64,000 bases of DNA from Kordia zhangzhouensis. GTDB taxonomy: Bacteria; Bacteroidota; Bacteroidia; Flavobacteriales; Flavobacteriaceae. The first letter of the stretch is position 1, and each line of letters opens with the position of its first letter. A program made the position numbers and the translations under genes. Positions 43,706-50,955 of the stretch are shown here, one piece after another. Below the pieces are notes generated by a model. That model was not told where the DNA came from. It did not search any database and worked only from the letters and a program-made list of their open reading frames with translations. The stretch lies in the NCBI RefSeq assembly GCF_001005305.1, contig NZ_LBMH01000005.1, positions 186,001 to 250,000 of the forward strand, in the 5' to 3' direction.

Positions 43706-44707
43706 TTACTTAGAATCTCTGCGAAATCGCATGATATCTTTGTTAAGTTGCGAATCATCATTCACAAAACTTGACAACATACTTATAATCATATCATTGT
43801 GGTGATGCTTAGATATGAGTTGGTACGCCATGTCTTGTATCGTCTCTTTAGGCGCAATTTCTCGTTTGTATTCTAATTGGAGTACTTTTAAGAAGTTTTC
43901 TTCATTTGAAACATTTACCATATCTTTTTTAAAGTTGATGATTGCATTGTTCAATTGAGCTGTATCTTTATAGTTAGCAAAGAGATTATTAGCACAGTTT
44001 ACCGCATCTTTGTTAGTTTCCCATCCATTTAAAAGTAAGTTATTTGCTGCCTGAACGTTATTCATTTTTTTACGATACAAAAGAGCTGCTTGTACGTATT
44101 GATAGTTCTTTTTATAATCATCAACAACTATTTGATAGTGATGAAATGCTTTTTTAGTATCTTTTAGTTGTGTGTGTATATCTCCTACTTCTTCATTCAT
44201 TTCCAACTCTTTATAGAGCTGTACGGCTTTGGTATATGAGCGAGCATGTGCATAGCATTCAGCTGCTTCTATTTTATTTTTACATTTTTTAAGAAAAATT
44301 ACAGCAGCTTCATTGTATAAATGCCCTTCTTTTAATATATGCGCTGCGCGATATGGGTTGCGTAAGAGTTTTAACTGAATGTACGCTGCCTTTTTGTATT
44401 GTTTTTTTTCGATGTACTCTTCACAAAGGTTTTCATAACGATCTACCAAGCTTTGAAATTGACTGTCGCCTATTGTAGATGTTCCTCCTCCATAGCCATT
44501 TTCTAAAGACACTGCTCCAAATAATGAACGCAATAAAGCAAATATTGCAAAAAAGATACACACAATAATCATGAGTGTAGTAATGAAACTCGTAAAGCTT
44601 CCTTGTATGATGGACATGACAAGTGTATAAATTGCCTTAAAGAACAAGAGTAAGAAGACAAAAAAGATCAACTTCTCCTGAAATTCTGTTTCTTTTGTAT
44701 CAGTCAT
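43706..44707 (-). CDS. Membrane TPR-like protein, last gene of the MoxR-vWA-propeller operon
   Basis: A 333-residue protein with two N-terminal membrane helices (IFFVFLLLFFKAIYTLVMSII; FITTLMIIVCIFFAIFALL, within about 1-65) and a helical repeat region of TPR-like units (KKAAYIQLKLL, EAAECYAHARSYTKAVQLYKEL, YVQAALLYRKK). It overlaps the upstream 444-residue gene by eight bases. It probably links the complex to the membrane or forms a scaffold (inference). I cannot assign a named domain. Confidence 0.65.
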   Translation of the reverse strand: MTDTKETEFQEKLIFFVFLLLFFKAIYTLVMSIIQGSFTSFITTLMIIVCIFFAIFALLRSLFGAVSLENGYGGGTSTIGDSQFQSLVDRYENLCEEYIEKKQYKKAAYIQLKLLRNPYRAAHILKEGHLYNEAAVIFLKKCKNKIEAAECYAHARSYTKAVQLYKELEMNEEVGDIHTQLKDTKKAFHHYQIVVDDYKKNYQYVQAALLYRKKMNNVQAANNLLLNGWETNKDAVNCANNLFANYKDTAQLNNAIINFKKDMVNVSNEENFLKVLQLEYKREIAPKETIQDMAYQLISKHHHNDMIISMLSSFVNDDSQLNKDIMRFRRDSK

Positions 44708-46034
44708 CTACTAATTTTTCGTCCTTTCGAACCAGTTTATATAATAATTTCAATACGGTAAACCCTAAAATTAGTGCAAAAATAATTCCAACGCCATTAG
44801 AGGTTACTAAAGGATAAAATAGGTATATCAATAACCCAATAATAATACATAAAACAATAAGTTTTGACACCCATGTCAGTTCATCTCCTCCAAAATAAAA
44901 TTCACCACTTTTAGTTGAATTTTCTTTAAATGAGAAAAAATCACTGTCTTCTGATAATTCTAACCAAGAAGGAGTTTTTTTCTGTATTTGCTTTTCTTTC
45001 TTTTTTAAAACAAAATACAATATAATTACAATAATTAATAAAAGTGGTATAAGGATTTGTTGATATTGTAAGCTATCATTGGTTAGTGTTGAATCAGAGG
45101 TATTGTTAGGAATAAAATCTTTATTTTCCTTCATGTTTTGTTCCGACTGATTTTTCGTGAGCCTTACATCTTCTGAAATTGTTTTTTTATTGGCTTGAGA
45201 TTGATCAAAAATAGCATATCCTATTCCTATCATACATATAATCGCTATAATTCCTAAAAGAATTTTCATTCCTTTTTGACTTCCTTCACCTGTCATTCCT
45301 ATAGATTGCCACAAACCACTTTTAAATTTATACTTTGCCAAAGCTTTTCCTCGGGCTGTCCCCAACATGTCAAGAGGAACTGCCATTTTTAAAGCTGCTT
45401 CTGGATTTTTTTCTAAGTATTTTAAATACTTTTCAATTTCTATATTGTTCCCTTTGAGTACTTTTTCCATATCAAAAGGCAACTTTTTTAAATCAACCAC
45501 TTCCTCTCCCACAAAAGGATTTCCCATTGTTGTTTCTTCTTCTGTTTCTGAGATTTCCACACTAAATGTAGAAACTTGAGTAGGGACTCTAACGCCTTTA
45601 GAAGGAACTTGTATATTGACTGCTTGCGGTTCAAACGCCTCCAATATGTTTTCCCAAGATAGTTTTTCTTTAAGTTCTATCAATCCTAACGTATGATGCA
45701 AAAAGTGTGGTACTCCATGAGTAATCCTAGCAAATTCTTCAGCTATCAATGCCATATTAAGCATTGTAAACTCTGGAATATAGAACTGAGGCGCTACTTT
45801 TTGAATGAATTTATTTTTTTCAACCGCCAAATGTTTTGGCATTTTCTTGATAATTAACAGAATACCTGCAATACTATTAGCATTAATTCCTGGGCATGGG
45901 TACACATCACAATCTGAAAGAGACAAGCGCATTCGAGTAATCTCTTGCAACCATATTGCTGGCGAAGAATTTTCAATAAAGATACCCGCTTTTTCATAAA
46001 CGTTCTCCTTGGTATGTTGCAAGGTTATTTCCAT
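44700..46034 (-). CDS. Membrane component of the MoxR-vWA-propeller operon
   Basis: A 444-residue protein. The N-terminal about 240 residues are soluble, with an opening segment (HTKENVYEKAGIFIENSSPAIWLQEI) and a YPCPGINANSIAGILLII part that I do not recognise as an enzyme. Four hydrophobic segments follow (about 256-275, 315-335, 388-408, 412-430). It overlaps the vWA/propeller gene by ten bases and the TPR gene by eight. It may be one of the propeller-associated (bpX-type) partner domains described for these systems; that is inference from context. Confidence 0.65.
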   Translation of the reverse strand: MEITLQHTKENVYEKAGIFIENSSPAIWLQEITRMRLSLSDCDVYPCPGINANSIAGILLIIKKMPKHLAVEKNKFIQKVAPQFYIPEFTMLNMALIAEEFARITHGVPHFLHHTLGLIELKEKLSWENILEAFEPQAVNIQVPSKGVRVPTQVSTFSVEISETEEETTMGNPFVGEEVVDLKKLPFDMEKVLKGNNIEIEKYLKYLEKNPEAALKMAVPLDMLGTARGKALAKYKFKSGLWQSIGMTGEGSQKGMKILLGIIAIICMIGIGYAIFDQSQANKKTISEDVRLTKNQSEQNMKENKDFIPNNTSDSTLTNDSLQYQQILIPLLLIIVIILYFVLKKKEKQIQKKTPSWLELSEDSDFFSFKENSTKSGEFYFGGDELTWVSKLIVLCIIIGLLIYLFYPLVTSNGVGIIFALILGFTVLKLLYKLVRKDEKLVDD

Positions 46035-48433
46035 GGATGTAATATGTGTTTCAGAAAAGGAATTAGATATTTTCTTTCAAAAGATTCTGCACTTATTTTA
46101 TGCGCCTTGCTTTTTTCTGGGTAAAAATACATATCTCCTGCAAATTCTTTGGTTGTGGCTAATGCAAGCTGAATACCAATATAAGAGGACAGGTAAAAAA
46201 TAGGAATCACGTCATTACTACTTTTAAAGATGAGCACTCCGTTTTTGTCAATTTCTATAGTACTTCCATCTTCAAAATGAATCATAAGTTCTCGCTTGTA
46301 CACGTAAGTCGTTAGCCCTACATTTTTATTATCTAATTTTTCCCTTAATAATTGTAATTGAATTGAATTTCCTGATATGTTAAGTTTGTGTTTTTCATTA
46401 AAAATAAGCTCCAATTCATTGGTAATAGTTATGGTTCGTATTTTGCTAAATACAGAACCCTCCGCATACGAAACATAATTGGACAAATGATTTCGGTAAC
46501 AACGCAATAACGAAAGCTTCGGTTGAACTATTTTTTCATATGTAAGCTCATGAATATGAAATCGTGTGTATACAGGATCGTCATTATAGTATTGTTTGGT
46601 AACCAAGTAAAGTTCGCCTTCAAGTACCATTAAATGTTTAAGGTAGTTTTTTTGAAATTCTCGATGATCGCCTTTATACTTTATAGTATAACTAGCGGTT
46701 TTAAAAATCATTTCATGATCTGCACTCCAATATAGGATTAACAATTCACCTTCAAATAAGGTTGCTAATTTTTGTTGTTGAATCCCCGTTACAAAACGCA
46801 TTTCTTTCTGAATCATTTCAAACCCTTTTTGGCGTGTATACGTTTTGAAAAGATCTCCATTTTTTTGGAGTACATACGAAAAATACTCATCAGTAAAGTT
46901 GATAATACTTCTGACAGGATAGCCATACAATACGGGATAATTAACAATATTTGTATTTTGTTTTTTTTCGGGGTTAACCGCTGCTCTTCTTTTTCTAGGT
47001 GGTTTAGCCCAAAGTTCTTCCAAAGGAAGTACGATGTGCTTTGCTAATCGTTTAGAACCATTTTTTAGTGTATACACTTTTATATTTCCTCCAGCATCGG
47101 CTGTAATAATACTTCCAAAACTAGCATTATGTTTATTAAAAATGCTACGAATAGCAGCATGTTCCAACGTTTTGGGTGTTGTGAAAAATGTAATTTCTAT
47201 ATTTTCTTCCTCACATTCGTTCAAAAATAAGCTAAGCGCATTTGCAGCATCTAAAGAAGCTGACGTAAGCTGTAAATTTTCAATTATATTTTCTTTGGTA
47301 TCAAAATGAATATTCTTGTATTTTTCTCCTAGAACAAATGACAAAAAATTCATTTCGTTCTTTGGATGATGTATTAACGAAAAAGCAGTTGCAAATGAAA
47401 GAATTTTGGGAGTTCCCCAATTTTTAATAGTCGTATCTATCAAGAAAATACGAGTTCGCAAATCTTCTTCAGGTGTTGTTTCGCGTCGTACAAATAATGC
47501 CTCTTTGTTTGCAATTCGATGTAAAAAAATCAAATCATCATTAGCAAACTCTGATAAGAGAATATTGTCAAATGTCCCTTTGTTGGTAATATCCGAAATA
47601 CCTCCTAACGGCATTTCTCCAGGATGTACATAATGCATAGGTAATTGGATTCCCGACCAGATTCGTTTGACCAAACTTCCCATAAAAAAGGTTTTGGGAT
47701 CTTCTAGTAGTTGCTGTAACAAGTCAGGATTGTCACTAAAGTTATGTATTTCAGTATCTTCTAGCTCAACAGGAACCGTTTCAATTTTTAACCAAGCTTT
47801 GAGTAATGCTTCTTTTGTTGGATATAAAAAATACAAATAAGCTAAGGCATTAATATCCTTACTAAACGCTGTTATGGTAAGTTGTCTTTTTTCTCCACAT
47901 TCATTCAGTTCAAATTCTTTATTTTTTATCAATGTAAGAACCTCATCTGCATGCTTTGATGATAAAGTATAATTTTTATTCTCAAATAGAAAAGCAAAAA
48001 GATCCATTCGTCTTTTCCCTTTTTTATAGCTTTCAGGAAGCATAATTAATATATCCAAGAATTTTCTAGCGTCTTCTAAGTTTATCGTTTCAGTAGAAAA
48101 CTCGCTTCTATTTACTAAAATTTCTTGAAGATTTTCATTGAAAATTTGATTAATAGCAAACCGAACTTCTCCTGGATTGGTAGCTAAAAACGCCAAAATT
48201 AAACTTCCGAACGGAGGAATTCCATTAGGAGTAATTATTTTTAATACTTGCTCAATTTGTTCTTTGTAAGCAATCGTCATACCATCTGGAATACTGATAC
48301 AGTTTATCCCTCCTTGATAGTCTTGTACTACATTTATCACACTTCCGTAGAACATATAATCAATCTCCCATTGCCAAAAATAATCTTGATAGGATTGAAA
48401 GTACCTGCTTGCTATGGATTGTGCGTTATTCAT
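46025..48433 (-). CDS. Fused degenerate vWA and beta-propeller-like protein
   Basis: An 802-residue protein, the largest in the operon. Residues about 1-310 are helical. At about 325-480 a vWA-like fold is suggested by TRIFLIDTTIKNWGTPKILSFATAFSL and later strands (NIEITFFTTP); the first MIDAS motif reads D-T-T-I-K rather than DxSxS, so metal binding is doubtful. From about 500 to 780 the sequence is all short strands (YFSYVLQKNGDLFKTY, EGELLILYWSADHEMIF, EGELYLVTKQYY), as expected for a beta-propeller. There are three bases between its start and the upstream stop. Confidence 0.65.
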   Translation of the reverse strand: MNNAQSIASRYFQSYQDYFWQWEIDYMFYGSVINVVQDYQGGINCISIPDGMTIAYKEQIEQVLKIITPNGIPPFGSLILAFLATNPGEVRFAINQIFNENLQEILVNRSEFSTETINLEDARKFLDILIMLPESYKKGKRRMDLFAFLFENKNYTLSSKHADEVLTLIKNKEFELNECGEKRQLTITAFSKDINALAYLYFLYPTKEALLKAWLKIETVPVELEDTEIHNFSDNPDLLQQLLEDPKTFFMGSLVKRIWSGIQLPMHYVHPGEMPLGGISDITNKGTFDNILLSEFANDDLIFLHRIANKEALFVRRETTPEEDLRTRIFLIDTTIKNWGTPKILSFATAFSLIHHPKNEMNFLSFVLGEKYKNIHFDTKENIIENLQLTSASLDAANALSLFLNECEEENIEITFFTTPKTLEHAAIRSIFNKHNASFGSIITADAGGNIKVYTLKNGSKRLAKHIVLPLEELWAKPPRKRRAAVNPEKKQNTNIVNYPVLYGYPVRSIINFTDEYFSYVLQKNGDLFKTYTRQKGFEMIQKEMRFVTGIQQQKLATLFEGELLILYWSADHEMIFKTASYTIKYKGDHREFQKNYLKHLMVLEGELYLVTKQYYNDDPVYTRFHIHELTYEKIVQPKLSLLRCYRNHLSNYVSYAEGSVFSKIRTITITNELELIFNEKHKLNISGNSIQLQLLREKLDNKNVGLTTYVYKRELMIHFEDGSTIEIDKNGVLIFKSSNDVIPIFYLSSYIGIQLALATTKEFAGDMYFYPEKSKAHKISAESFERKYLIPFLKHILHPWK

Positions 48434-48436
48434 AAT

Positions 48437-49162
48437 TTACTGTGATAATCGAAAACTACTGATAGATAACGATTGAAAATCAGTAGTTGATATGGTAAAA
48501 TACGTACTATTATTGTTGATTATTATTAGTTCATTGTCGCTTTGAGTCATTTTTTTTTGAAAGTATGTACTCAATTCTGGATATTCAAAATCAAATCCCG
48601 CAGGTAATAAAAAGTTTTGGTGTTTCCATAATGTGGTTCCTGGTAAAGCCAACAAAGGAATTCCTATGAGTAGTGCCTTTTTATTGACTATAGTCCATTG
48701 TACAGGTTGTAATCGGACAGCAGGTGTTTTGAGTATACTATTTTTTAAAACGTCCATATCTACCCATTGGGCAGCAGCTTCCCGTTCTACTGTAGAAGGT
48801 ACTATACGAAATATGATTTTTTCTTTAATTCCGAAAAAGTTAAAGTTATAATCGGGTAGTGTAACCGGTAAAAAAGTATGAATGGGCGACCATACCCAAG
48901 AAGTTTTTAATCGTTCCTCAGGCAAATTCCCTTCGAGAAAAAATAATGCATTTTCTCGCTGAAAATAGATTTTTTTAAACGGAATGCTTCGTATTTCTGG
49001 ACTGTGTAATTGTGCCGGAGCAATTCCTCGTATCCAAATATCGTCATTGTCAACCGCTACACGAAGCGATTGCCACACACGAATCTGAGCAAGTTTGTCT
49101 TTATACTTGATTGGTAAACGCAGCCAATATTCTGTTATGTTTTGTGTAAGATCTTTTTCCAC
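48437..49162 (-). CDS. Unknown component of the MoxR-vWA-propeller operon
   Basis: A 241-residue soluble protein, mostly beta-rich (IWIRGIAPAQLHSPEIRSIPF, WTIVNKKALLIGIPLLALPG, ITTTDF-like end), with no signal peptide. Its start overlaps the MoxR ATPase gene by 28 bases. I recognise no motif; by position it is a likely partner domain (bpX-type) that bridges ATPase and propeller. Confidence that the gene is real is high; the role is inferred. Confidence 0.65.
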   Translation of the reverse strand: MEKDLTQNITEYWLRLPIKYKDKLAQIRVWQSLRVAVDNDDIWIRGIAPAQLHSPEIRSIPFKKIYFQRENALFFLEGNLPEERLKTSWVWSPIHTFLPVTLPDYNFNFFGIKEKIIFRIVPSTVEREAAAQWVDMDVLKNSILKTPAVRLQPVQWTIVNKKALLIGIPLLALPGTTLWKHQNFLLPAGFDFEYPELSTYFQKKMTQSDNELIIINNNSTYFTISTTDFQSLSISSFRLSQ

Positions 49163-50268
49163 AATTGATCTATTTCACTATTGATATATTCTTTTTTCTG
49201 TTGGTCTTTTATCCAATCTGTTCTATTTTGCAGGTATCGCAATTTGTCTTTGATGACATTTAATTCCTGTAAAGAAACTGTTTGTTCCTCAAATTTTTCT
49301 TTTAGATTTTCCACTTCATTCATCAACTCTTTAGGATTGGGCGCTTTGTTAAAAAATGCTTGCGGATGAACCGTAGCTTCCGTTTCTTCTTTTTCGATCA
49401 TCGCATTTACGGTAGCTTGTAGTGTTTCTATTTGTTCTTCTGTACTCCAAATGTATTTTAATACCCATAAATCAGACAAAATAGCTTCGGTACGATTGCA
49501 CAAAATTGCGCTTGCAGCGATTAGGTTTTGCATTTTTACAGCTCGTCGGTCAGAGACTTCTATTCCCGTATTTCGCAAACTGTGAATTAGCTCAATGTAT
49601 GAACTTCTTATCGAGCTCAAATCCACACTTTTTACTTTGTTTTGTAAGTCTTTGATTTCTTCAGGAGAAATTTGTGTTTGTTTCGTAGTTTCATTCCGTT
49701 CAAGTTTCCAACCTGCATGCAAAACTTCTTCCAGCAACTCTGGTTTTACATTATCTACTTTCAGTCGGATTAAAAAACGATCTAATAAAGCTGCTAAGGC
49801 TTCATCTTCAGGCAACTGATTACTCGCACTAATAAACATTAAAGCAGGCAACTTCTTAGTTTCTTTTCCTCTGCGGAAAATCTTTTCATTTAGCGCCATT
49901 AATAAACTATTTAGGATGGCAGAATTCGCATTAAATATTTCGTCTAAAAATACCAATGAAGCTTCTGGTAACATTCCTTCTGTATTCGTCACTAATTCAC
50001 CTTCCTTTAATAAGCGTATGTCCAATGGACCAAAAATTTCGTTCGGTTCGGTAAATCGCGTGAGTAAGTAATCAAAATTAATTCCGCCAATTACGTGACT
50101 GGACAATTGTTTAACAATGGCACTTTTGGCTGTTCCAGGAGGTCCTAATAAAAACACATTTTCTTTTGCCAATAGTCCAATTCCTAATAAATCAATTACT
50201 TCGTCTTTCCCAACAAAAACTTGTTTGATTTCTTCAAGGATTGCTCGTATTTTTTTTGTTTCGTTCAT
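49135..50268 (-). CDS. MoxR family AAA+ ATPase
   Basis: A 377-residue MoxR/RavA-type ATPase. Walker A is GPPGTAKSAIV at about 39-49, FEPNEIFGPLD-like TEPNEIFGPLDIRLL is the family insert, Walker B is SLVFLDEIFNANSAILNSLL, sensor 1 is MFISASNQLPED, and the arginine-finger region is LLDRFLIRL. The C-terminus (about 300-377) is helical and charged. MoxR ATPases remodel or activate proteins together with vWA partners. It follows the first operon gene by three bases. Confidence 0.92.
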   Translation of the reverse strand: MNETKKIRAILEEIKQVFVGKDEVIDLLGIGLLAKENVFLLGPPGTAKSAIVKQLSSHVIGGINFDYLLTRFTEPNEIFGPLDIRLLKEGELVTNTEGMLPEASLVFLDEIFNANSAILNSLLMALNEKIFRRGKETKKLPALMFISASNQLPEDEALAALLDRFLIRLKVDNVKPELLEEVLHAGWKLERNETTKQTQISPEEIKDLQNKVKSVDLSSIRSSYIELIHSLRNTGIEVSDRRAVKMQNLIAASAILCNRTEAILSDLWVLKYIWSTEEQIETLQATVNAMIEKEETEATVHPQAFFNKAPNPKELMNEVENLKEKFEEQTVSLQELNVIKDKLRYLQNRTDWIKDQQKKEYINSEIDQLWKKILHKT

Positions 50269-50271
50269 TTT

Positions 50272-50955
50272 TTATACTTCGGTAACAAATGCACTCCAAA
50301 AAGAATGAGCATGCTCACCTAAATGGATTGACACATTGTTTTGTATGATTTTATGTTTGGTCATATTGATATCTTTTGCGGCAATTACTCTGTCAGTAAA
50401 CATCATTCGAAAGCAATCATTAGAAAAATCTGAAATAAGCTGTTCTTCATTGACTTTAAGTTCAATGTCGTGCCCTATGGCAGCATATGGAAAACTTTGT
50501 AGTATTTGCTGAAGTGTCTTTACCAACCAATCATCAAAGTCTATGTGCTCTAATTCTTTGAAAATATAAGGTAGAAAACGCAACGACAAATCAGCAGAAA
50601 GTTGTGTTGCAGGTGTTATTTTCCCTGCGTAAGGCTTGAAGAACTTCTCTAAATCTTTAGGTTCTTCCAAACGATGTGCTAAAAATTGCGCCGCATAATA
50701 TATGGTTTTTGCTGCCCATATTGCGGCTTCTTTGTCAAAATCTGGTGCTTGATAAGGATAGTTTAAGCTTTCATTTTCATACTCCTGTGCTAAAAAATCG
50801 CCAACATCTGCCAATTCATCTAACGTAACTTTTGGTTGCTTGGTATAAAGTACAAAGTGTCCTGATGTTCGTAAATGATGAATGGTTTGTAGTATGTTAT
50901 TTTGTAAACTCAAGAGAATTAAACATAAAAGCGTTTGCCTGACAGTAAGCGTCAT
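50272..50955 (-). CDS. First gene of the MoxR-vWA-propeller operon, unknown domain
   Basis: A 227-residue, mostly helical protein with a TLDELADVGDFLAQEYENESLNYPY segment, then AAIWAAKTIYYAAQFLAHRLEEP, and a C-terminal HAHSFWSAFVTEV end. The size and position before a MoxR ATPase match the small bpX-type domains of MoxR-vWA-propeller systems, but I cannot assign which. The annotated ATG gives a hydrophobic N-terminus; TTG at 50913 (MSLQNNILQTIHH) is a good alternative because a -7-like TATGTTTA lies at 50927-50920. Confidence 0.65.
   Translation of the reverse strand: MTLTVRQTLLCLILLSLQNNILQTIHHLRTSGHFVLYTKQPKVTLDELADVGDFLAQEYENESLNYPYQAPDFDKEAAIWAAKTIYYAAQFLAHRLEEPKDLEKFFKPYAGKITPATQLSADLSLRFLPYIFKELEHIDFDDWLVKTLQQILQSFPYAAIGHDIELKVNEEQLISDFSNDCFRMMFTDRVIAAKDINMTKHKIIQNNVSIHLGEHAHSFWSAFVTEV

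Follow-up and report, generated by a model that had tools for sequence, protein, structure and literature searches.

The 64-kb stretch of Kordia zhangzhouensis DNA analyzed here (the window) carries on its minus strand, at 43706-50955, a six-gene operon that is a well-formed member of the predicted MoxR-vWA-beta-propeller (bpX) ternary systems; in agreement with a first-pass annotation of this DNA, the literature that we searched held no tested or demonstrated function for such systems. Here, we show that relatives of the operon keep its gene set and order, that the operon co-occurs with an island of RNA-repair genes and is physically linked to it in Flavobacterium and Chryseobacterium, and that arrays of tRNA genes lie beside the operon in Chryseobacterium and inside the island in Kordia. 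As far as the searched literature extends, this link of a bpX operon to RNA-repair islands and tRNA arrays is new. We tentatively propose, with a little less confidence than an even chance would warrant, that the operon encodes a membrane-anchored, RavA-like AAA+ remodeling machine that acts in a response to tRNA or ribosome damage. The operon comprises six open reading frames (ORFs), given here in the order of transcription:

50272..50955, minus strand: bpX4, the first gene, 227 amino acids (PF19920, E 4.1e-69), which stays first in relatives
49135..50268, minus strand: bpMoxR AAA+ ATPase, 377 amino acids (PF20030, E 1e-101; motifs; RavA nearest)
48437..49162, minus strand: bpX2, 241 amino acids (PF19918, E 6.4e-75)
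46025..48433, minus strand: bpX0/bpX1 scaffold, 802 amino acids (PF19915, E 5.3e-29, and PF19917, E 3.8e-19)
44700..46034, minus strand: bpX3 with transmembrane segments, 444 amino acids (PF19919, E 1.3e-34; hydropathy)
43706..44707, minus strand: membrane-anchored TPR-like protein, 333 amino acids (hydropathy; sixth gene or fusion partner in 79/80 relatives)

All six ORFs lie where the first-pass annotation had placed them, and the tight junctions that it described are borne out, with a 3-base gap, a 28-base overlap, a 3-base gap, a 10-base overlap and an 8-base overlap in succession. Its suggested link to the bpX families proved strong, as a Pfam search matched five of the six proteins to named families of the ternary systems, well above curated cut-offs (338.7 bits for bpMoxR PF20030, 102 bits for bpX0 PF19915 and 68.7 bits for bpX1 PF19917, each against a cut-off of 27 bits). 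We compared 80 relatives, the best among 147 confirmed matches. The six coding regions are all present and identically ordered in 78 of them, which argues that the arrangement is not due to chance; the two exceptions are a locus whose scaffold gene lies in two frames (L057) and one that stops at a contig edge (L104).

Co-occurrence with RNA-repair islands and tRNA arrays

Clustering of neighboring genes across 82 loci identified RNA-end processing and ligation as the theme common to Flavobacterium and Chryseobacterium. Pfam searches with one representative each named an RNase_T/DEDDh exonuclease, an RLIG1-like ligase and a T4 Rnl2-type RNA ligase among the island proteins, and further a calcineurin-like phosphoesterase and RNaseH_like, cREC, R2K ATP-grasp and SPFH/Band 7 proteins. 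The Kordia island, which lies on another contig than the operon or far off on the chromosome, holds RtcB (in 5/6 islands fetched), a WYL regulator, DUF434/DUF5616 and the exonuclease, joined by PNKP in K. algicida; DUF434/DUF5616, an SDR protein and one unnamed family are found both near the Chryseobacterium operon and in the Kordia island.

With bpX2 as the marker of the operon and the DEDDh exonuclease as the first marker of the island, the exonuclease was present in all 10 bpX2-positive Flavobacterium versus 21/140 bpX2-negative genomes (raw Fisher value 3.8e-8) and in 28/33 tested bpX2-positive versus 1/10 bpX2-negative Chryseobacterium (3.1e-5), where all 10 negatives were tested and the 33 positives, out of 108, were made up of 20 genomes, 12 small ones and G400. 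The corresponding counts were 10/10 versus 0/1 in Kordia (0.09) and, with some weak matches counted, 9/10 versus 24/382 in the phylum sample (6.6e-10). DUF5616, the second marker, was found in 9/10 bpX2-positive versus 0/1 bpX2-negative Kordia, in 3/4 tested bpX2-positive Flavobacterium and in 11/19 bpX2-positive versus 1/10 bpX2-negative Chryseobacterium. The one bpX2-negative Kordia genome, G004, carries neither the operon nor either island marker. Since bpX2-negative Chryseobacterium are small (3.0-4.3 Mb) and genome size could therefore mimic the association, we tested the smallest bpX2-positive genomes of this genus (3.5-4.1 Mb) apart; the exonuclease was still present in 10/12, which speaks against a mere genome-size effect. 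As raw counts, the correlation between operon and island is strong in Flavobacterium and Chryseobacterium and modest in Kordia, and it is a correlation rather than proof of function.

Chryseobacterium and Flavobacterium show physical linkage, as does one of two Epilithonimonas. In each of the 10 bpX2-positive genomes among the 150 Flavobacterium, the exonuclease is on the same strand and upstream, at ~2-9 kb from bpX2; in Chryseobacterium it lies ~8-19 kb downstream, and 26 of the 28 are on the same contig. Flavobacterium G420 has both operon and exonuclease, on different contigs. In genome G522 the operon stands between a 592-amino-acid gene and the exonuclease, and in the bpX2-negative G565 and G315 the same gene lies close to the exonuclease with no operon between them. 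Chryseobacterium G369 keeps the island and 16 tRNA genes but has no operon between its array and a phosphorylase-like gene, the gene next to the operon in many other Chryseobacterium. Among these neighbors are genes that we take to encode an acyl-CoA synthetase, a nucleoside phosphorylase and a slipin (SPFH/Band 7 by Pfam, where run).

Downstream of the Chryseobacterium operon, 2-3 kb that are poor in ORFs consist of a tRNA-gene array. Of the 51 loci with enough sequence, 50 have four or more tRNA genes within 5 kb downstream (L132 is the exception; another three loci have too little sequence, and L104 is without the TPR-like gene from which the distance is taken). The first array tRNA begins 745-1618 bases past the stop codon of the TPR-like gene, and in 45/50 loci all array tRNAs are on the operon strand, while evenly spaced 20-kb control stretches held zero tRNA genes in 17/20 (maximum 4) and 16/19 (maximum 2) cases. 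In Kordia, tRNA genes stand beside the exonuclease in all six islands fetched, with 4-10 in each; this count leaves out a Phe gene that lies upstream in two islands. The window operon is not positionally part of such an island, and the same genome carries an array with an RNA ligase elsewhere (L145). The individually located arrays are as follows:

L145 (contig C1), 16362-17891: array in the window genome, 7 tRNA genes beside RtcB, upstream Phe gene not counted
L196:2707-15250: array in a K. algicida stretch with 18 tRNA genes, unusual anticodons Gly-acc and Thr-agt
L147:17497-17877: further array, unusual anticodon Val-aac
L149:4556-6085: further array, unusual anticodon Ala-agc

The unusual anticodons were called by ARAGORN, and four array tRNAs are 56-64% identical to the copy with the same anticodon outside the array. 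It is possible that the divergent array tRNAs are decoys, cleavage-resistant spares or degenerate genes.

Domain architecture of the operon proteins

The first-pass annotation had a MoxR AAA+ ATPase in second position, and PF20030 agrees with the motifs of this protein: a Walker A GPPGTAKS at residue 42, LVFLDE, SASN and LDRF, with a P-loop that fits the GXXXTAKS pattern of the ternary systems. bpMoxR is the best-conserved operon protein in Kordia (0.91), its nearest solved structure is RavA (E 7.7e-45 over residues 19-290), and its motifs suggest that it may form a MoxR ring. The bpX2 protein, first described as beta-rich, is better called alpha+beta on the evidence of its AlphaFold2 model (pLDDT 85.4, pTM 0.52; 47/48 relatives aligned, L071 omitted), which returned no match under E 0.001 from a Foldseek search of the PDB (best E 0.076).

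The AlphaFold2 model of the 802-residue scaffold, from 47 aligned sequences (46/48 relatives, the split copy L023 and L071 omitted; mean pLDDT 79.4, pTM 0.43), has a helical bpX0 N-terminus, an alpha/beta domain at ~327-445 and a beta-rich region at ~500-770 that ends in bpX1. The first-pass annotation had seen a vWA domain and a propeller-like part in this protein, which Pfam matches to bpX0 and bpX1. A C-terminal beta-propeller is supported by the model, whose top Foldseek matches are mostly beta-propellers (YCF48 at E 9.3e-5, BamB, TolB), with low whole-chain TM-scores of 0.09-0.13 by query. For the vWA part, the model shows an alpha/beta domain, with no match to the Pfam VWA family at E up to 10 and none of the protein's profile to PDB sequences to E 1. 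D333, which we read as the first aspartate of the metal-ion-dependent adhesion site, is invariant in 47/47 sequences, followed by S or T at 335 and by K or R at 337 in 46/47; no Asp is among the commonest residues of the 47 sequences at 418-420, the expected strand end for the second vWA aspartate. Because the alpha/beta domain and D333 are kept, 337 is K or R and the second Asp is not seen, a divergent vWA domain is probable rather than proved. The available part of Kaur et al. 2020 (PMC7159879) describes a subset of systems that have lost one vWA aspartate or both. Immediately ahead of the vWA-like domain, residues ~240-320 form the most conserved stretch of the scaffold among Kordia (0.93), poorly modeled alone, which may contact the MoxR ring. 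In the Kordia metagenome-assembled genome (MAG) ALOHA_ZT_18 (L023 and L057), the scaffold gene is split in two frames (582 + 193 amino acids), through either a sequencing error or a real break.

Kyte-Doolittle hydropathy assigns membrane segments to the last two proteins and none to the other four. The bpX3 protein consists of the bpX3 domain (2-168), a linker and then three or four transmembrane segments, and the TPR-like protein starts with two N-terminal ones. The first-pass claim of two membrane members therefore stood, while the TPR character of the 333-residue protein came down to a weak match to TPR_6 (E 0.3), the best it has in Pfam, where it belongs to no family. The two genes are fused in 14/80 relatives (13 Flavobacterium and one Chitinophagales MAG), which strengthens the earlier idea of a membrane-linked assembly.

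As far as the available text of Kaur et al. 2020 (PMC7159879) describes their subsystem 4, the MoxR-vWA-beta-propeller ternary systems share with the Kordia operon the GXXXTAKS bpMoxR, the bpX0/bpX1 scaffold with divergent vWA-like and propeller-like parts, a membrane component and extra linked genes of no known superfamily. In contrast to subsystem 4, the third component in Kordia and Chryseobacterium appears to be split into a bpX3-membrane and a membrane-TPR-like protein and has no propeller match in Pfam. RavA-ViaA of Escherichia coli likewise joins an AAA+ protein to a vWA partner at the membrane, in the accessible part of its description (PMC9489729), but the system described here differs in having a propeller on its vWA-like partner and four additional proteins, of which two contain membrane segments.

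Proposed role and competing explanations

We propose that a MoxR ring would act through the hyperconserved segment and the divergent vWA-like domain of the 802-residue scaffold, whose propeller would present or capture a client, and that bpX3 and the TPR-like protein would together form one split membrane anchor and scaffold. This machine would work beside the island of RNA ligases and DEDDh exonucleases, to which some genomes add an SPFH (slipin-like) protein and an end-healing enzyme of the PNKP type; the array of divergent tRNA genes would act alongside, much as in the stress-induced trn/RtcB regulon of Anabaena. A functional link to the island, switching-on by damage and a client within the repair or translation machinery are what we infer for it. 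The comparison that leads us to a tRNA-damage or translation-stress response at the membrane is that in Anabaena PCC 7120 a similar set of tRNA array, RtcB and slipin is held under the repressor TrcR and released by antibiotic translation stress, according to the accessible part of PMC10272220. Like the trn/TrcR regulon, the flavobacterial islands join tRNA genes with RtcB or an Rnl2-type ligase, some with SPFH. The Anabaena genes, by contrast, are divided between a plasmid, which carries the array, and the chromosome, which carries rtcB, and a single repressor unites them; that part of the account mentions no bpX system. A more detailed version, in which the bpX proteins are an ATP-driven membrane arm that detects broken tRNA-ribosome complexes or clears them away and then gives way to the RNA ligases, while divergent, perhaps cleavage-resistant or decoy tRNAs replace those lost, seems to us rather doubtful; under it, an entire branch of predicted conflict systems would serve to rescue translation instead of to kill.

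In place of the general term "conflict", the co-occurrence offers a specific, testable hypothesis, one that concerns survival and the state of the tRNAs once translation has been damaged. If the hypothesis is correct, the tools of RNA repair would include a MoxR-vWA machine, and the chromosomal tRNA arrays of flavobacteria would gain a protein partner. Burroughs and Aravind reportedly described, in 2016, RNA-repair operons with RtcB/RtcA, T4-like Rnl and PNKP; the island shares such ligases with those operons, plus a PNKP-type enzyme in K. algicida. We found no published link between RNA repair or RtcB and MoxR-vWA-propeller systems in a search that did not extend to that 2016 paper, no literature on Chryseobacterium MoxR and phage or on Chryseobacterium tRNA arrays, and nothing related by title among the matches listed for bpX2. 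In the available main text of Kaur et al. (PMC7159879), RtcB, RNA ligase, WGR and Chryseobacterium are absent, and "RNA repair" and "tRNA" appear in the reference list only.

A number of observations weigh against a role in tRNA damage. In Kordia the operon and island are unlinked, the association depends on a single negative genome with its p value of 0.09, and no tRNA genes occur in the window or in 8/8 named Kordia operon loci; the Flavobacterium loci hold only 0-6 tRNA genes (13 loci). Neither marker follows the operon everywhere: the exonuclease is missing in 5/33 bpX2-positive Chryseobacterium, Epilithonimonas G740 and the Chitinophagales MAG G741, and DUF5616 is missing in Kordia G007 and Flavobacterium G377 and present in only the 11/19 bpX2-positive Chryseobacterium given above. 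Conversely, the island is common without bpX2, as in 21 Flavobacterium and in G369 with its 16 tRNA genes. The Fisher values are uncorrected for phylogeny, and the Chryseobacterium linkage, like most of that in Flavobacterium, may be one ancestral event each. Island WYL and DEDDh proteins match PADLOC models labeled CRISPR-associated, and no operon protein matched an RNA-binding family in the Pfam search of the six.

Kaur et al. proposed a conflict function for the ternary systems (PMC7159879, available part), and the first-pass annotation followed them in suggesting a role in biological conflict. The operon would then be an abortive-infection or anti-invader system in which MoxR-vWA would set a threshold, detection of an invader would fall to the propeller, and the membrane parts would kill or seal the cell, with the island aiding the survivors; we consider this unlikely. 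Membership in subsystem 4 and the presence of membrane components fit such a system, and sister MoxR-vWA systems carry effectors in the accessible text of PMC7159879, but Pfam found no effector domain among the six proteins, and PADLOC gave them only weak matches (21.1 bits, to the ATPase domain, and 14.1 bits for MoxR; 8.6 bits for bpX3). A PADLOC scan of ten neighbors returned one weak match (16.7 bits). In favor of conflict, no part of the scaffold evolves faster in Kordia than the propeller region (0.41-0.48), and the first 99 residues of the TPR-like protein are variable as well (0.40-0.52). Such variability is not seen at the bpX3 N-terminus, where the third component of subsystem 4 is highly variable in the available description (PMC7159879): the first 264 residues of bpX3 have 0.59-0.75 mean pairwise identity in 10 Kordia, against 0.22-0.51 for the remainder. 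The stable Kordia site and the presence of bpX2 in 108/118 Chryseobacterium also argue against conflict. The conflict role was unsupported in these tests, while bpX membership still favors it, and it is not refuted, because the RNA-repair island could serve repair after tRNA-cutting toxins; since such toxins are themselves conflict weapons, the conflict and tRNA-damage readings can be combined.

The operon could instead encode a housekeeping-like assembly chaperone for envelope or membrane complexes of the RavA-ViaA sort, whose link to the island reflects hitchhiking of accessory blocks that accumulate in large flavobacterial genomes and share an insertion neighborhood, an explanation that we hold to be improbable. 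It draws on RavA as the nearest solved MoxR, on the position of overexpressed RavA and ViaA at the inner membrane and their lipid binding in the accessible part of PMC9489729, and on the lytic transglycosylase that adjoins the operon in Kordia. Hitchhiking agrees with an island that is often present without bpX2, but against it stand the co-presence of operon and island on different contigs, as in the Kordia window genome and Flavobacterium G420, a linkage that is arranged differently in Flavobacterium and Chryseobacterium, and an association that is kept in the smallest bpX2-positive Chryseobacterium.

Distribution and neighboring genes

The first-pass annotation had called for a survey of patchy distribution, and the operon is indeed patchy between genera, whereas it is stable within Kordia and Chryseobacterium. 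bpX2 was found in 10/392 genomes and 3/179 genera of the phylum sample and was absent from all 49 other family genera sampled; it is present in 10/11 Kordia (the window genome and 9/10 further genomes) and 108/118 Chryseobacterium and rare in Flavobacterium (10/150). In Chryseobacterium G686 (C1:1441602-1442276), a 75%-complete assembly, a bpX2 copy is broken in three pieces with stops.

The Kordia operon is flanked by a small TPR gene, beside an rpmH-like gene and carB, and by the lytic transglycosylase. Of the nine Kordia loci outside the window, five have both flanking genes, as the window does, three have a single one, and the short G007 contig has none. A site that is fixed wherever it can be read, between such flanks, led us to reject the description of the Kordia locus as a patchy defense island. 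The same flanks occur without the operon in Kordia G004 and five outgroup genera. A five-gene protein tree, with weak values at some deep nodes (0.47-0.72) and several incomplete rows, nests G004 within Kordia (0.94), which argues against G004 having branched before the operon was acquired; its operon-less state is therefore best read as loss, as is the lack of both island markers. The operon gap of G004 (L041:12470-13603) contains small ORFs, which we take to resemble class I lanthipeptide-type precursors.

In several Kordia, the gap beside bpX4 holds apparent hybrid histidine kinase-receiver-AraC regulators, one of them confirmed by Pfam, and small exported proteins, sometimes in repeated sets (L021:2309-7292, L022:13021-19895, L023:12343-16919, L024:8616-18312). 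The look of these variable inserts, with one weak PADLOC match among the genes scanned, also told against a defense island. On the other side of bpX4, an extra gene stands between it and bpMoxR in 21/78 relatives, and a DUF4919-like gene occupies this place in 12 Chryseobacterium loci, including L071:8301-8879. WGR- and SWIM-domain genes adjoin the operon in two Flavobacterium (L055:12235-16655 and L052:468-5456), and other MoxR-vWA gene sets include WGR and SWIM proteins.

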